This document shows, piece after piece, positions 1,699 to 55,655 of a stretch of DNA of 64,000 nt. Where the stretch lies: positions 1 to 64,000 of the forward strand of contig NZ_MKQR01000001.1 in the NCBI RefSeq assembly GCF_001940455.1, read 5' to 3'. The translations under genes and the position numbers were made by a program. This DNA comes from Actinokineospora bangkokensis (lineage in GTDB: Bacteria > Actinomycetota > Actinomycetes > Mycobacteriales > Pseudonocardiaceae). The stretch's first letter is position 1; every line of letters starts with the position of its first letter. The notes beneath the pieces are model-generated. The model searched no databases, was not told the origin of the DNA, and saw nothing but the letters and a program-made list of their open reading frames with translations.

Positions 1699-1791
1699 GC
1701 CGCCACCCCCACCCCGGACAGGCACCATCCCCGCCAGGCACCACCCCGGACGACCGCGTCCTCCCGGCCTGAGCCGACCCGGTTGACGCCC

Positions 1792-1825
1792 AGCCCCCGC
1801 CCCCCACGGGCGGGGGCTGTTCTTA
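1792..1825 (+). terminator. Rho-independent terminator after dnaA
   Basis: An 11-bp perfect stem (AGCCCCCGCCC at 1792-1802 with GGGCGGGGGCT at 1808-1818) has a 5-nt loop and is followed by GTTCTTATT. It lies about 95 bp past the dnaA stop codon and should separate dnaA transcription from the origin. Confidence 0.7.
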
Positions 1826-2435
1826 TTGCGCCGGTGGAGCGGCCCGCACAGCCGCAATAAGGCCCGGCGTCGCGCCCGGCCGCGGGGGCCGGCAGGCTGC
1901 TCCCCGGTGCGACCACCCCGGCGGCCGCCGCACCGGCCGAACTTTTCTGCCACCGGGGGCGGAGCCCGCACCTCCCCGCAAAACCCCCGCGCCGCCCGGC
2001 GCCGCCGCGCCCTCGGCACCCGCGCCCCCGGCCGACCGCGCGGGCGGGACTTTTCTGCGGCTGGGGGCAGCGCCTCCCCAACCGGGAAAAAGTCGCTGGA
2101 GCCGGATCGCGGGCGGGCGACCACACCGCCGCGACGACCGATGAGCGGATGGGCACGCCGGCCACCGCGCCGGGCTCCGCGCAATAAAGACAGCCACCGC
2201 GCGGCGCACCGCCTTATTGGGGGTGGGGAGCGGGGCGTCCACACCCCGAAAAGTCGGCCGGAGGTGAACGGCGGGCGTCCGGTGACACCGCGCGGCGAGG
2301 TCCGGGGCCGCCGCCGGGCGCTCGAACCGGCTCGCCGGGGGGTCGGCGACGCGTCCTCCACCGCCCCGAAAACCCTTGCCACACCGGGAAAACCGGCACC
2401 GGTGAGTGGTCTCGGTCACCGGTACGGGGGACTTC
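1819..2435. other. Non-coding left part of the dnaA-dnaN interval with spaced AT-rich motifs
   Basis: No convincing gene is seen in this 0.6 kb; the open frames are GC-driven shadows. Short AT-rich islands stand out in very GC-rich DNA. TTATTG at 1823 and its complement CAATAA at 1855 start 32 bp apart, and CAATAA at 2182 and TTATTG at 2214 again start 32 bp apart in the opposite arrangement. ACTTTTCTGC occurs at 1941 and 2049, and AAAAGTCG-type reverse versions occur near 2087 and 2249. The function is unknown; the position suggests origin-associated protein sites. Confidence 0.45.
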
Positions 2436-2436
2436 A

Positions 2437-2745
2437 GCTGTGGATGGCTGTGGACAACCCTGTGGGTCGTTCGCGGGCAACCTGTGCGCTACTCGGCGCA
2501 CATCTGGGGATGGAAATGTGGACAACTCGCGCCGTCTGTGGACAGTTCGAGCCTGTGGACAACTCATCCACCGAAGGCCCGAGTTGTCCACGGGTTGTCC
2601 CCAGGGGTTCTCCACAGCCCCGCACCGGTCCTGACCTGCTGGGACAACGGCTGTCCACAGTATCCACAGGACCTACTACTGCTACTGGCTTTTGATCTCT
2701 TGAAGAGAAGAAAAAGACAGAAATAGGGGAGCTGTGGATCTGGGG
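2437..2745. other. oriC: oriC: chromosomal replication origin (DnaA-box cluster and AT-rich segment)
   Basis: Perfect actinobacterial DnaA boxes (TGTGGACAA or its complement) occur at 2449-2457, 2517-2525 and 2554-2562. One-mismatch versions occur at 2537, 2584, 2595, 2608 and 2651, and weaker ones at 2439, 2461, 2660 and 2733. Boxes left of about 2565 read in one orientation and most of those at 2584-2668 in the other. The AT-richest stretch, about 2670-2730 (including a purine run near 2701-2725), is the best candidate for the unwinding element. The position between dnaA and dnaN is the usual one in Actinobacteria. Confidence 0.9.
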
Positions 2746-2832
2746 ACAGCTCGGCCGGGGCGGGTGGTCGGGGCACCGGGCCGGGGCGGCCGCGACCACC
2801 CGCCCGAATCGACGCGGCCCGGGAGCACGCTC

Positions 2833-2838
2833 TACGGT
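2833..2838 (+). promoter_or_regulatory. Possible -10 element of dnaN
   Basis: TACGGT matches the actinobacterial -10 pattern TANNNT and lies about 250 bp before dnaN, to the right of oriC. No strong -35 is seen. The 340 bp from 2746 to 3085 otherwise holds no recognisable feature. Confidence 0.3.
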
Positions 2839-3085
2839 TGGGGCTCCACAGCGTGGACAGCCCGAGGCCCCGGCCTGCACCGCACGGCGCGCTCGCCGGG
2901 CCCCGGGCCAGGCTGGGGCTGGCACCCGACTCCGACGCGGACCGACCCGACCGCACCCGACCCCCGACGCGGGGACCCGTGCCCGGGACCGGTCGTGCGC
3001 GCGGCGCCGGTCGCCCGCCCCGACCTCGGGGACCGCGCCGTGGTCCCGGCCCGCCGTGCACGAACCGTGCCGCGAAAGGACTCGC

Positions 3086-4219
3086 ATGAAGATCCGCGTC
3101 GAGCGCGACGGCCTGGCCGACGCCGTCGCCTGGGTCGCCCGCAGCCTCCCGTCCCGGCCCCCGGTCCCCGTCCTCGGCGGTGTGCTGCTGGACGCCGGGT
3201 CGGCCGACGGCGCGGACGGGCTGACCGTCTCCGGCTTCGACTACGAGGTGTCGGCCACGGTCGGCGTGCCCGCCACGGTGGCCGACGGCGGCCGGACCCT
3301 GGTCTCGGGCAGGCTGCTGGCCGACATCACCAAGTCCCTGCCCGCGCAGCCGGTGGAGATCTCCGTCGACGGCGCCAGGGTGGCCATCTCCTGCGGCAGC
3401 GCGCGGTTCTCGCTGCCGACGATGCCGGTGGACGACTACCCGCAGCTGCCCGCGATGCCCCAGCACGCAGGCGAGCTCGCCGGTGAGGTGTTCGGCCAGG
3501 CGGTCAGCCAGGTCGCGGTCGCGGCGGGCAAGGACGACACGCTGCCGATGCTGACCGGGGTGCGGGTGGAGATCACCGGGGACAAGCTGACCCTGGTCGC
3601 CACCGACCGCTTCCGGCTGGCGATGCGCGAGTTCGACTGGAAGCCCTCCGGCGACGTCGAGGACGCCGCGGTGCTGGTGCCCGCGCGCACGCTGGCCGAC
3701 GCGGCGAAGGCGCTGGGCAGCGCCGGGCGCACGGTGGAGCTGGCGCTCTCGCCCACCGACGGCCTGCTGGGCCTGTCCGGCTCCGGCCGCCGCACCACCA
3801 GCCGCCTGCTCGACGCGGAGTTCCCGCGCTACCGCCAGCTGCTGCCGAGCGAGCAGACCTCCAGCGCGGTGATCGCGGTCTCGGCCCTGGTCGAGGCGAT
3901 CAAGCGCGTGTCACTGGTCGCGGAGCGGGGTACCCAGGTGCGGCTGGAGTTCGCCGACGGCGTGCTCCGCCTGTCCGCGGGCGGCGAGGACGAGGGGAGC
4001 GCGGAGGAGGAGCTGCCGGTCGAGTTCACCGGCGAGCCGGTGACCATCGCGTTCAACCCCGGCTACCTGCAGGACGGCCTGGCCGCGCTGCACTCCGACC
4101 GCGCCGAGCTGTCGTTCACGACCCCGAACCGGCCCGCGCTGGTCAAGCCGGTCGGCGCGGAGGGCGAGGTCACCCCCGGCTACCTCTACCTGCTGATGCC
4201 GGTGCGGCTGCCGGGCTGA
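3086..4219 (+). CDS. dnaN: DNA polymerase III beta sliding clamp
   Basis: DnaN forms the dimeric ring that tethers DNA polymerase III to its template. The 377-residue product has the usual clamp length with three similar domains, and it ends in the typical MPVRLPG C-terminus near the protein-binding cleft. An upstream GTG at 3056 would add ten residues, but ATG at 3086 is chosen because the family begins at [10 protein letters not shown] and a GAAAGGA ribosome site lies just before it. gnd follows after 35 bp, so dnaN, gnd, recF, the DUF721 gene and possibly gyrB form one transcription unit. Confidence 0.97.
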
Positions 4220-19913: not shown

Positions 19914-19923
19914 CGCGGAGATC

Positions 19924-19952
19924 CATCCACAGGAGTTGTCCACACTGGGGAT
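19924..19952. promoter_or_regulatory. DnaA box upstream of the PH-domain gene
   Basis: TTGTCCACA at 19936-19944 is a perfect DnaA box; a CATCCACA lies 12 bp before it and the oriC-associated string CTGGGGATG follows at 19945. The sites lie between the PH gene start and crgA. Confidence 0.55.
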
Positions 19953-38877: not shown

Positions 38878-40248
38878 ATGAACTCGATCGGATCGCAGGG
38901 TTCTCCCATCACTCCGGACACGTGGGAAGACCCCGAGATGCGCGCCGCGCTCGCGGCGCGGGAGATCAGTTCCGTCTACCGGCTCCTGCGGCGCACCGGT
39001 GTGTCGCAGCGGCAGATCGCCGCGATGACCGGCCAGTCGCAGTCCGAGGTGTCGGAGATCCTCAAGGGCCGCCAGGTCATGGCCTACGACGTGCTCGCGA
39101 GGATCGCCGACGGGCTGGGCGTCCCGAGGGGATTCATGGGTCTCGCCTACGACGAGGTGACCGCGGTGCGAGTCGCGGTGTCGCGCGAGGCCGCACAGCC
39201 TGAGGAGAGCGAAGAGGTGAAGCGTAGGGAGTTCCTGGCGCACGCCGCCGCCGTCACGGTGGGCGCGAACGTGCTGGGCACGAACTCCGGGTCGTGGGTC
39301 GCCAACCCGGTGCAGACCCCCGCGCCCGGGCGCATCGGGATGACCGATGTGCGCCAGGTCGAGGCCGCCACGCGGGCGCTGCGCTCGCTGGACTACCAGT
39401 ACGGCGGCGGGTTCTGCCGCGACGCGGTGGTGGCGCAGCTGTCGTGGGGCCAGCAGATGCTCGGCGCGTCCGGACCCGAGCACGTCAAGCAGCGGCTGCA
39501 CGTGGCGCTGGCCGACCTGCACAACCTGGCCGGGTGGACCTCGTTCGACATCGGCCTGACCGACTCCGCCCGCAACCACTTCGGCAAGGCGCTGGAGCTG
39601 GCGAAGGCGGGCCGCAGCGAGCCGCTGGTGGCCAACATCCTCTACCGGATGGGCCGGGTCTACCTGCACAAGGAGTCCCCGGACGACGCGCTGAAGATGT
39701 TCCAGCTCGGCCAGATCGCCGCCCAGGAGTCCGGTTCGGAGCTCGCGGTGGCGGTGATCTGCGCCAACCAGGCGTGGGCGTACGCGCTGATGGGGCACAA
39801 GGACCAGACCATGAAGCTCATCGGCAGGACCCGCGACGAGTTCGCGCGGGCCAACGTCTCCGAGGCCGAGGACTGGGTCAAGTTCTTCAACGAGACCGAC
39901 GTGCACGCCATGATCGGCACGGTGCACACGGTGCTGGCGCAGACGGTGGACCCGACGCACACCAAGTACGCCATCCCGGCGCTGTCGAAGGCCATCGACT
40001 CCTACGGCGAGGACATGAGCCGGTCGAAGGCGTTCAACCTGGGCGCGCTGGCCACCAACCACCTGCTCGACGGCGACGTCGACCACGGCGCCCGGATCGG
40101 GCGGCAGGCGGTGGAGATGGCCGAGACGCTCAAGTCCAGCCGGGTCAAGGACCGGCTCAAGCCCCTGCTGGAGGAGGCGGCGAAGCGGCGCAACAACGCC
40201 GACGCGCGCGACCTCGCCGAGCAGATCACCAACCTCAACGTGGCGTGA
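38878..40248 (+). CDS. XRE-family helix-turn-helix regulator with TPR-like C-terminal domain
   Basis: A 456-residue regulator. Residues about 30-90 form a Cro/C1-type helix-turn-helix (VSQRQIAAMTGQSQSEVSEIL). A linker with a twin-arginine-like RREFLAHAAAVTVGANVLG stretch follows; it is internal and typical of this actinobacterial family, not a genuine export signal. The rest (about 160-450) is all-helical TPR-like repeats (RLHVALADLHNLAGWTSFD, NILYRMGRVYLHK). Such proteins often control secondary metabolism or differentiation and may bind a small signal. GGTGAGGGG precedes ATG 38878. Its stop overlaps the start of the phosphotransferase gene (GTGA), indicating co-translation. Confidence 0.88.
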   Translation: MNSIGSQGSPITPDTWEDPEMRAALAAREISSVYRLLRRTGVSQRQIAAMTGQSQSEVSEILKGRQVMAYDVLARIADGLGVPRGFMGLAYDEVTAVRVAVSREAAQPEESEEVKRREFLAHAAAVTVGANVLGTNSGSWVANPVQTPAPGRIGMTDVRQVEAATRALRSLDYQYGGGFCRDAVVAQLSWGQQMLGASGPEHVKQRLHVALADLHNLAGWTSFDIGLTDSARNHFGKALELAKAGRSEPLVANILYRMGRVYLHKESPDDALKMFQLGQIAAQESGSELAVAVICANQAWAYALMGHKDQTMKLIGRTRDEFARANVSEAEDWVKFFNETDVHAMIGTVHTVLAQTVDPTHTKYAIPALSKAIDSYGEDMSRSKAFNLGALATNHLLDGDVDHGARIGRQAVEMAETLKSSRVKDRLKPLLEEAAKRRNNADARDLAEQITNLNVA

Positions 40249-41254: not shown

Positions 41255-41551
41255 ATGTTCGCTCTCCCCAGCAAGGCCGTCCGGCGGCGGCGCGCGCTGT
41301 GCACCGCCGCGGCCATCGACCGGCTGGTCGACGACCGGGTCGCCGGTGTGCGCGGGCTGCCCGAGGCCGACCGCCGCAGGCACGCCGAGCACCTGGCCGA
41401 GCTGGTCGCCCTGGCCCAGGCCTACCGGCACTTCGGCAAGGGCTGGATCGGCAAGCGCGAGCTGGACCGGCGCTCCGCCGCGGCCACCCGCAGGCTCACC
41501 GCGCTGCGGCTGGCGGTGCCGTCCGCCGCGCACCTCACCGATGGGGACTGA
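41255..41551 (+). CDS. Small basic protein of unknown function
   Basis: A 98-residue, largely helical and strongly basic protein (KAVRRRRALC, EADRRRHAEHLAELVALAQAYRHF). No family recognised. The start is uncertain: ATG 41255 has GAGGTGG upstream, while ATG 41204 in the same frame would add 17 residues. A strong AGGAGGTAA at 41172-41180 is too far from either and fits only an out-of-frame GTG. Possibly co-transcribed with the phosphotransferase. Confidence 0.5.
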   Translation: MFALPSKAVRRRRALCTAAAIDRLVDDRVAGVRGLPEADRRRHAEHLAELVALAQAYRHFGKGWIGKRELDRRSAAATRRLTALRLAVPSAAHLTDGD

Positions 41552-41670
41552 CCACTCGCCGTACCGGGAGACTGCCCCGAACGGGTTACGAGTGCGCCCG
41601 GTGCGTTGCACGGGTCGCTGCGCAGCGCGTTGAGCGGCAGCATTCCCGCGACGAACGCGCATCCGGTGAG

Positions 41671-41820
41671 TTGTCCCCCGCTGCCTGTGGACAACTAGGG
41701 GTAGTTGTCCACAGGTGTGGACCACCGGTGCTCGCCGCGATCACCCGCCGAGGCCCGGAAACCGCTGCCGAGCAGGGGGAGGGCAGGTGCCGGGGCGGGG
41801 TGTGCACAGCCTGTGGACAA
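41671..41820. promoter_or_regulatory. DnaA-box cluster with a perfect palindrome between convergent genes
   Basis: Perfect boxes at 41686-41694, 41705-41713 and 41812-41820, and one-mismatch boxes at 41671 and 41716. The first two form a perfect inverted repeat, CCTGTGGACAACTA (41684-41697), loop GGGG, TAGTTGTCCACAGG (41702-41715). The 287-bp gap 41552-41838 holds no gene. It could be a DnaA titration/regulatory site, and the hairpin could also end transcription from either side. Confidence 0.7.
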
Positions 41821-41838
41821 CTCCACCCGGCCTGTGCA

Positions 41839-42864
41839 CTACACGTTGATGGGCGCCCGGGTGAGGACGGTGGCGATGCCGAACGCCAGGCCCATGACGC
41901 CGAGTTCAACCGCCGCCCAGGTGACCAGGGCGGTCGGCTTGTGCGCGGTGACCGCGGGCAGCAACCGGTACCGCATCTTCGCCCCGAGCAGGCCCAGCGC
42001 CACCAGGCACACCACCTTGAGCAGGAGCAGCAGCCCGTAGTCGGTGGTGAACAGGCCCTCGACGACGCCCAGCGTCGGGCTCACCACCAGCTCGACGAAG
42101 CCGTTGAACACCCCGGTGGCGGTGACCACCAGGACGCAGGCCGTCGCGAGCTTGGAGAACCGGGGCAGCGCGTGCGCCAGCAGGGTGCGGTTCGCGGCGA
42201 GCACGACGACCACCGCGCCCAGCCCGCCGGTCCACGCCGCCGCCGCCAGCACGTGCAGCTCCATCGAGATCATCGTGAAGTCGTGCCAGCGCGGGTTGGT
42301 GGCGTGCCCGGTCACCGGCAGCGGCAGCAGCGCGAACAGCGCCACCGCCGCCAGCAGCTCGGCGGGCACCCGGTCCCCGGCGCGCACCGACCACAGCGCC
42401 AGCCCGAAGCACAGCAGGCCGAACACCGCCACGAACACCAGCGCCTTGCCCGCGGCGATGGTGACCACGTACTCGACCACCGACGCCGCGGTCAGCGGTG
42501 CCCCCGGCCGCAGCTCCGCGGCCTGGAGCACCAGGGTGGCCAGCGCCGCGCCGACCCACAGCAGCGAGGTCTGCACCGCGGCCCGGCGGGCGCCGAGCAG
42601 CAGCGGCGCGGACAGCTTGGGCCGGTCGAAGCCGACCAGCAGCGACAGCAGGCACAGCCCGGTGGTGACCACGGCGGCCACGTCGAGCAGCACCCGCACC
42701 AGCGGCAGCGCGACCCGGACCACCGCCGGGGGCTCCGGCAACCCGGGGACCGGCTCCGCCGCGGTGATGGCGAGGCCGACCAGCACGCCGAGGACCGCGC
42801 CCGCGGTCAACGACGCCACCAGGTGGTACCGGCGCCCGGGGGTGGTGGTCCGGGTCTCGGTCAC
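41839..42864 (-). CDS. copD: CopD family copper transport membrane protein
   Basis: A 341-residue polytopic protein with about nine hydrophobic segments. The CopD domain is recognised by the helix containing SMELHVLAAAAWTGGLGAVV (metal-ligand-like His) and LLLLKVVCLVALGLLGAKMRYRL. CopD proteins move copper across the inner membrane together with periplasmic/extracellular CopC. Last gene of the copC-copD-ycnI unit, 21 bp after copC. Unlike YcnJ of Bacillus, CopC and CopD are separate here. Confidence 0.87.
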   Translation of the reverse strand: MTETRTTTPGRRYHLVASLTAGAVLGVLVGLAITAAEPVPGLPEPPAVVRVALPLVRVLLDVAAVVTTGLCLLSLLVGFDRPKLSAPLLLGARRAAVQTSLLWVGAALATLVLQAAELRPGAPLTAASVVEYVVTIAAGKALVFVAVFGLLCFGLALWSVRAGDRVPAELLAAVALFALLPLPVTGHATNPRWHDFTMISMELHVLAAAAWTGGLGAVVVVLAANRTLLAHALPRFSKLATACVLVVTATGVFNGFVELVVSPTLGVVEGLFTTDYGLLLLLKVVCLVALGLLGAKMRYRLLPAVTAHKPTALVTWAAVELGVMGLAFGIATVLTRAPINV

Positions 42865-55633: not shown

Positions 55634-55655
55634 TGTGGACAACCCCTGTGGACAA
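55634..55655. promoter_or_regulatory. Two tandem perfect DnaA boxes
   Basis: TGTGGACAA at 55634-55642 and 55647-55655, same orientation, 13 bp start to start, between the gamma-glutamyltransferase gene and the glycan locus. Confidence 0.6.

Follow-up and report, generated by a model that had tools for sequence, protein, structure and literature searches.

The window analysed here, the first 64,000 nucleotides of contig NZ_MKQR01000001.1 of Actinokineospora bangkokensis, carries a conserved cluster of DnaA boxes in the gap between two convergent genes. As read from the sequence, the site consists of three DnaA boxes, or four if the weak box 0 is counted, which alternate in direction and keep a fixed, helically phased spacing; the set stays next to one gene, at a distance of about 40 kb from oriC, the replication origin. 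We interpret it as an oriC-proximal cluster, specific to Actinokineospora as far as tested, that would bind DnaA and restrain initiation of replication. Based on sequence comparison and on analogy with other bacteria, we give this reading a probability of about 0.48. Binding of DnaA to the site is, taken by itself, very probable. Once-per-cycle control of initiation is less well known in Actinobacteria than in E. coli, and the cluster may have a part in setting the frequency of chromosome replication. As a candidate it is small, conserved and non-coding, has a defined geometry of 40 bp and belongs to a genus of soil bacteria; it was not found in the neighbouring genera examined, and both its gain and its function are directly testable.

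We defined a strict box as TTRTCCACA. In A. bangkokensis (own genome, G000), box 1 (41686..41694, minus strand) and box 2 (41705..41713, plus strand, +19 from box 1) are perfect copies of TTGTCCACA, the high-affinity box of Streptomyces coelicolor and Mycobacterium tuberculosis according to Table 1 of PMC4285127. An earlier note on this DNA had described them as two perfect head-to-head boxes in 14-bp arms around a GGGG loop, and this description was exact: the arms of the palindrome (41684..41715, no strand) at 41684-41697 and 41702-41715 are 14 nt long and 100% complementary, GGGG lies between them, and each contains one TTGTCCACA. The note had listed further boxes at 41671, 41716 and 41812. 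The last of these, the distal box (41812..41820, minus strand), is perfect, the third perfect one of the locus. The other two are not: box 3 (41716..41724, minus strand, +30 from box 1) reads TGGTCCACA and has one mismatch, and box 0 (41671..41679, plus strand) is a degenerate box, TTGTCCCCC, with two mismatches to TTGTCCACA. The cluster in the own genome thus totals three strict boxes, or five with the degenerate ones. In the whole window, 16 sites match TTATCCACA with no more than one mismatch, whereas shuffled sequence would give 1.03.

The cluster was compared among 16 Actinokineospora genomes, the own genome and 15 congeners (G001-G015). In all 16 it lies on the 3′ side of a small gene (41255..41551, plus strand; about 98 amino acids, start uncertain), whose product shares 50-71% identity with the own copy among the 13 congeners aligned. 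Two or three strict boxes were found downstream of this gene in every genome, all within 300 bp; counted from the start of its stop codon, the first strict box is at 92-138 bp and the last at no more than 264 bp. The other neighbour is a CopD-like copper-resistance gene (41839..42864, minus strand; Pfam CopD, 5.5e-19). When the search was made through CopD, at least two boxes lay directly past its end in 11 of the 15 congeners. In the remaining genomes, G002, G007, G011 and G013, CopD has moved away and is not adjacent, and the boxes remain beside the small gene. A loss of the cluster in these four genomes, read from orthology through CopD alone, was therefore wrong.

Conservation is concentrated in the boxes. 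The alignments covered 14 of the 16 genomes (A2, without G005 and G010), 15 (A3, without G010, which is nearly identical to G014) and 12 (A4, those with the 19-20 spacing). Among 12 genomes, pairwise column identity was 94.6% for box 1, 82.8% for box 2 and 92.6% for box 3. The box columns jointly reached 90%, whereas the spacer between box 1 and box 2 had 53%, so that the boxes stand as islands. TTG and TTA variants swap within box columns, as expected of a DnaA target. Box 1 is strict in 15 of the 16 genomes (the exception being G001, which does not fit), box 2 has one or two mismatches in nine, and box 3 is strict in 12, with one mismatch in G000, G007 and G008. The position of box 0 holds a strict box in G001, G006, G010 and G014 and a degenerate one in G003, G012 and G013. 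The distal minus-strand box is present in G007 and G003 as well.

The spacing and direction of the boxes are also conserved. The alternating geometry (-,+19/20,-30/31) was found in 12 of the 16 genomes. Three others, G006, G010 and G014, have a shorter form (-,+9,-20), which equals the first minus one helical turn, and also carry the strict box 0 (plus) 15 bp ahead of box 1. Altogether, 15 genomes keep three boxes in such an alternating arrangement, and in none of them do the mismatches of the three boxes sum to more than two. This spacing and the one-turn deletion suggest that the boxes would be bound together, in a single complex that is phased and alternating. The 16 orthologous stretches were given 3200 dinucleotide shuffles in all; neither two strict boxes nor the geometry at up to three total mismatches appeared even once. 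The 19/30 pattern, allowing three mismatches, was searched for in 200 Pseudonocardiaceae genomes including 10 of Actinokineospora. It occurred at nine places, of which seven were this locus and two were weak matches (three mismatches) in two other genera; the reversed-pattern control found no place in the same 200 genomes. Across the 16 Actinokineospora genomes, strict opposed pairs with a gap of 8-13 bp numbered 11, and six of these were at this locus.

The palindrome is less conserved than the cluster. The earlier note had proposed to look in relatives for both the boxes and the loop; the box cluster recurs in all 16 genomes, but the perfect palindrome with its GGGG loop does not. Perfect 14-bp arms are found in the own genome alone and a nearly identical loop in G007 alone, and both opposed boxes are strict in only six. 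If the palindrome itself were the element, it would act as an RNA hairpin or cruciform, that is, as a terminator or structure signal. The perfect arms of A. bangkokensis are what favours this explanation. The outer and inner arm pairs are, however, broken in many relatives, and over the alignment 73.2% of cells could pair in the arms compared with 72.9% in column shuffles. Controls with slid arms gave 23-41%, lower values that are expected from the boxes themselves. One of five pairing measures, that of further pair types, was above most shuffles (12 of 500 as high). No match to Rfam at the gathering score was found for the site. An intrinsic terminator, with a conserved GC hairpin and a T-run, was rejected: there were no terminator-like sites between 41500 and 41900, and the pairing is not conserved. 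The alignment thus already largely refutes a hairpin or cruciform, which we consider highly improbable, and a terminator made of DnaA boxes, as the earlier note had suggested, is unlikely.

The same note had placed the boxes in a convergent intergenic region where no promoter is expected. This was borne out: the small gene points toward the cluster from one side and the CopD-like gene from the other, and no sigma-70-like site was found in the region 41500-41900 by a scan limited to sigma-70-type promoters. Given this convergent setting, the site is unlikely to regulate a promoter. The setting would suit a road block, in which DnaA bound at the site stops convergent transcription or shields the early replication fork from collisions. 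In G002 and G007, where CopD is gone, a codon-bias scan again predicted an opposite-strand neighbour; the scan is crude, and the frame in G002 overlaps the boxes. In G011 and G013 the same scan predicted no opposite-strand gene closer than about 0.9-1.1 kb, though it may have missed nearer ones. Orientation-dependent termination by DnaA has reportedly been described (Schaefer and Messer 1989, going by its title).

A road block is nevertheless unlikely. The 20 loci of other genera described below do without boxes, a fixed phase of three boxes would not be needed for it, and a separate conserved motif follows the stop codon ahead of the boxes. This post-stop stretch (41549..41660, plus strand) has motifs of the type CCGTTCGG...CCGAACGG and is distinct from the boxes. 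In alignment A3 it keeps a putative stem of seven pairs; no pair has changed on both sides, and there is no covariation. The stretch, lying between the stop codon and the boxes, may be the real terminator or a DNA motif.

The position of the site relative to the origin is similar in the genomes where it could be determined. In the window, dnaA is at 1-1698 and dnaN at 3056-4219, both named by eye, and the gap between them (1699..3055, no strand), with its own DnaA boxes at 2449-2668, is the oriC region from which distances are reckoned. The distance from the dnaA start to box 1 is 41.7 kb in the own genome, as the earlier note had estimated (about 41 kb), 41.7 kb in G005, 42.5 kb in G014, 49.0 kb in G006, 45.5 kb in G009 and 40.5 kb in G004; in G001 the nearest box is at 41.8 kb. 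The placement is therefore origin-proximal, 40.5-49.0 kb, in all seven genomes that have both features on one contig. G011, with dnaA and the site on different contigs, was excluded, and the other eight were outside this sample.

Under the interpretation as a restraining site, DnaA would bind cooperatively and form an opposed, closed complex, in contrast to the head-to-tail filament that opens oriC. The site would be copied soon after initiation. The doubled site would then take up or inactivate DnaA, which would make a second, untimely initiation less likely. We propose this restraint after early duplication by analogy with two other bacteria. Bacillus subtilis is described as having six DnaA-box clusters outside oriC, loss of all of which leads to early initiation (PMC13220808, PMC5295017). 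In S. coelicolor, according to PMC10950094, DnaA-box clusters outside oriC are called analogous to datA. Like these clusters, the present site has several DnaA boxes outside oriC, and it is origin-proximal; the Bacillus clusters are named oriC-proximal in the title of the paper on them. Going by the available descriptions of the Bacillus and Streptomyces clusters, it differs from them in its few boxes, its fixed alternating geometry, its setting between convergent genes and its restriction, as tested, to one genus.

The earlier note had proposed a titration or reactivation site, similar to datA or DARS. An extra-origin site for the control of DnaA is indeed the best reading, but neither system is matched in its strict geometry. 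According to PMC5742627, DARS1 and DARS2 have equal spacing, with box I opposed to boxes II and III, head-to-head contacts have been proposed for them, and they are far from oriC. A DARS-like site would act in the opposite sense, with opposed DnaA molecules exchanging ADP for ATP and promoting initiation. In support of this, the present site has a three-box core that includes an opposed pair, as does DARS, and boxes 2 and 3 face each other with their CACA ends inward like DARS boxes I and II. However, the cores of DARS1 (taken from the bioD-uvrB gap) and DARS2, read from the genome of E. coli MG1655, are both +0/-14/-26, compared with -0/+19-20/-30-31 at the present site, where 11-12 bp separate the two facing boxes and the third lies on the opposite side of them from that in DARS. 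The site is also about 40 kb from oriC, whereas the DARS sites are described as well away from it. DARS in the strict sense was ruled out by the geometry, and a DARS-like reactivation appears unlikely.

datA is a closer match in position, a DnaA-box cluster near oriC that is copied early. Its essential boxes are described as sharing one direction and needing IHF (PMC5742627). As the boxes alternate here, datA in the strict sense was ruled out, so far as its rule is given by that description.

Several results weigh against a restraining role, the difference in box direction from datA among them. One genome, G001, is arranged differently and lacks the three-box geometry. Box 2, which forms half of the palindrome, is strict in merely 6 of the 16 genomes. 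The 9/20 spacing class was accepted post hoc, after the sequences had been viewed, though the shuffles were scored by the same rule. The cluster also appears to be restricted in distribution. The small gene was found in 109 of the 200 family genomes, 10 of them Actinokineospora, and 20 of the 99 loci from other genera were sampled; these came from eight genera, eight loci being from one genus. No strict box was present within 1.5 kb at any of the 20. Degenerate box words occurred at five, for example TCTTCCACA at 60 bp past the stop codon in G103. Similarly, 80 of 124 confirmed CopD loci were examined, 12 from Actinokineospora and 68 named ones from elsewhere, and none of the 68 had a strict box within 2 kb downstream. 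The absence at these sampled loci suggests that the site is not a general actinobacterial control element. Most likely the cluster was gained in the ancestor of Actinokineospora, to judge from these loci, and an exception among the 79 unsampled genomes is possible.

The number of boxes is a further difficulty for a restraining role. The own genome has 193 copies of TTRTCCACA, against 13 in a reversed-pattern control, and the 16 Actinokineospora genomes have 100-757 strict boxes each, against 13-40. The site holds three of these roughly 193 boxes of the own genome, so that it would titrate little DnaA by number alone; the interpretation has to assume that it binds DnaA with special affinity or acts on it. 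We therefore retain a state-changing role among the explanations. The site would then be a lineage-specific control element for the state of DnaA outside the Proteobacteria, in which opposed protomers on the phased array of alternating boxes change the nucleotide bound to DnaA by exchange or hydrolysis, and which arose independently of DARS and datA by a single gain in the ancestor of Actinokineospora. We regard this as doubtful, if slightly less so than the DARS-like and road-block explanations.

With strict boxes so frequent throughout the genome, one box on its own says little and the weight lies on the conserved cluster; arguments from single boxes were abandoned for this reason. Synteny can nevertheless pick out likely extra-origin DnaA sites in genomes so crowded with boxes. 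Among the first 100 boxes listed for G014 (0-3.0 Mb), the density was 10.5 per 100 kb within 100 kb of oriC, compared with 2.8 outside, and three strict boxes within 150 bp occurred at this locus and at one other (1299303-1299441). The site is thus, on box sequence, one of several predicted clusters, marked out by its place and geometry.

The abundance of boxes also raises the question of whether the site serves another protein or chromosome organisation and reads TTRTCCACA by chance. Many of the other boxes belong to a dispersed repeat, which is absent from the window, and some copies of the word may not serve DnaA at all. On the other hand, TTRTCCACA is known as the DnaA box of Actinobacteria, and it is found again in oriC and in the counterparts of mycobacterial sites that bind DnaA. 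We consider this explanation improbable, somewhat more so than a DARS-like site or a road block.

These counterparts served as positive controls. According to PMC7738170, five regions are bound by mycobacterial DnaA, as seen in vitro for M. tuberculosis and in vivo for M. smegmatis; among them are oriC, Rv0010c-Rv0011c and a site upstream of dnaB. In Actinokineospora, all 16 genomes had two to four strict boxes, pointing the same way, in the gap that separates the L9 gene from dnaB (L200-L215; in the own genome G000:C26, about 833670-833920, gap genes assigned by Pfam there). Thirteen of the genomes share two boxes at a distance of 53 bp and a further one about 152-165 bp before them. In the crgA gap, boxes were found in seven of seven genomes read: the six congeners carry two tandem boxes spaced by 13 bp, with one mismatch at most, and the window has one strict and one degenerate box at 19920-19950, at the 5′ end of the bPH_6 gene. 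The present site coincides with neither gap. Conserved boxes at two places bound by DnaA in mycobacteria make it likely that DnaA binds conserved clusters in Actinokineospora.

Rv0010c-Rv0011c itself is described in PMC7738170 as a palindrome of two DnaA-like boxes near the origin that is bound by DnaA, and expression of its two neighbour genes was unaltered in dnaA mutants. The present site resembles it as a palindrome of DnaA boxes near the origin. Rv0010c-Rv0011c is a different place: its counterpart, between the bPH_6 gene and crgA, is at 19.9 kb in the window and carries tandem boxes in six congeners, whereas the present site is at 41.7 kb. The earlier note had known of no described element of this kind. 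In the open-licence literature searched, no paper was found for Actinokineospora with "DnaA box" or for "DnaA-reactivating" with Actinobacteria, both weak absences. For the genus the statement therefore holds; for the kind of element it does not, given the descriptions of the Bacillus and Streptomyces clusters and the mycobacterial palindrome. Within the family, the oriC of Kutzneria albida is reported, in the account available, to have no classic DnaA boxes.

Among the neighbouring genes, an NsdA-family regulator (38878-40248) lies upstream of the small gene. The small-gene protein had no Pfam match in the own copy and stray weak matches at most in 14 relatives; the two copies tested against NCBIfam had no match.

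A dispersed, sometimes tandem, intergenic repeat was seen in the own genome (L132, L133, L134, L135, L141, L144 and L145). Each copy has a single TTGTCCACA box or two in direct orientation, in many cases with a distance of 19 bp, and GTTGAAAACAGGGGTCCCC comes some 45-70 bp later; the whole resembles boxes plus a promoter-like word plus a GC hairpin. No Rfam match was found in the four loci scanned. A similar layout with other letters was seen in A. inagensis (L057, period about 213 bp) and, less clearly, in Goodfellowiella (L114).

Among the CopD loci, a record titled Rhodococcus rhodnii (L052) had a CopD that matches the query at 62%, like the Kibdelosporangium copies, and its title may be wrong. 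The window also contains two perfect boxes in tandem, spaced by 13 bp, at 55634-55655, where a gamma-glutamyltranspeptidase gene starts. Five congeners each have a tandem pair with the 13-bp spacing at a similar distance from dnaA. Matched by distance alone, the pairs of G005 and G009 point the same way as that of the own genome, and those of G014, G004 and G001 the opposite way. In another genus, an opposed DnaA-box pair and a third box lie just upstream of the gene pair for ribosomal protein S6 and SSB (L007, G016:C42:45751).
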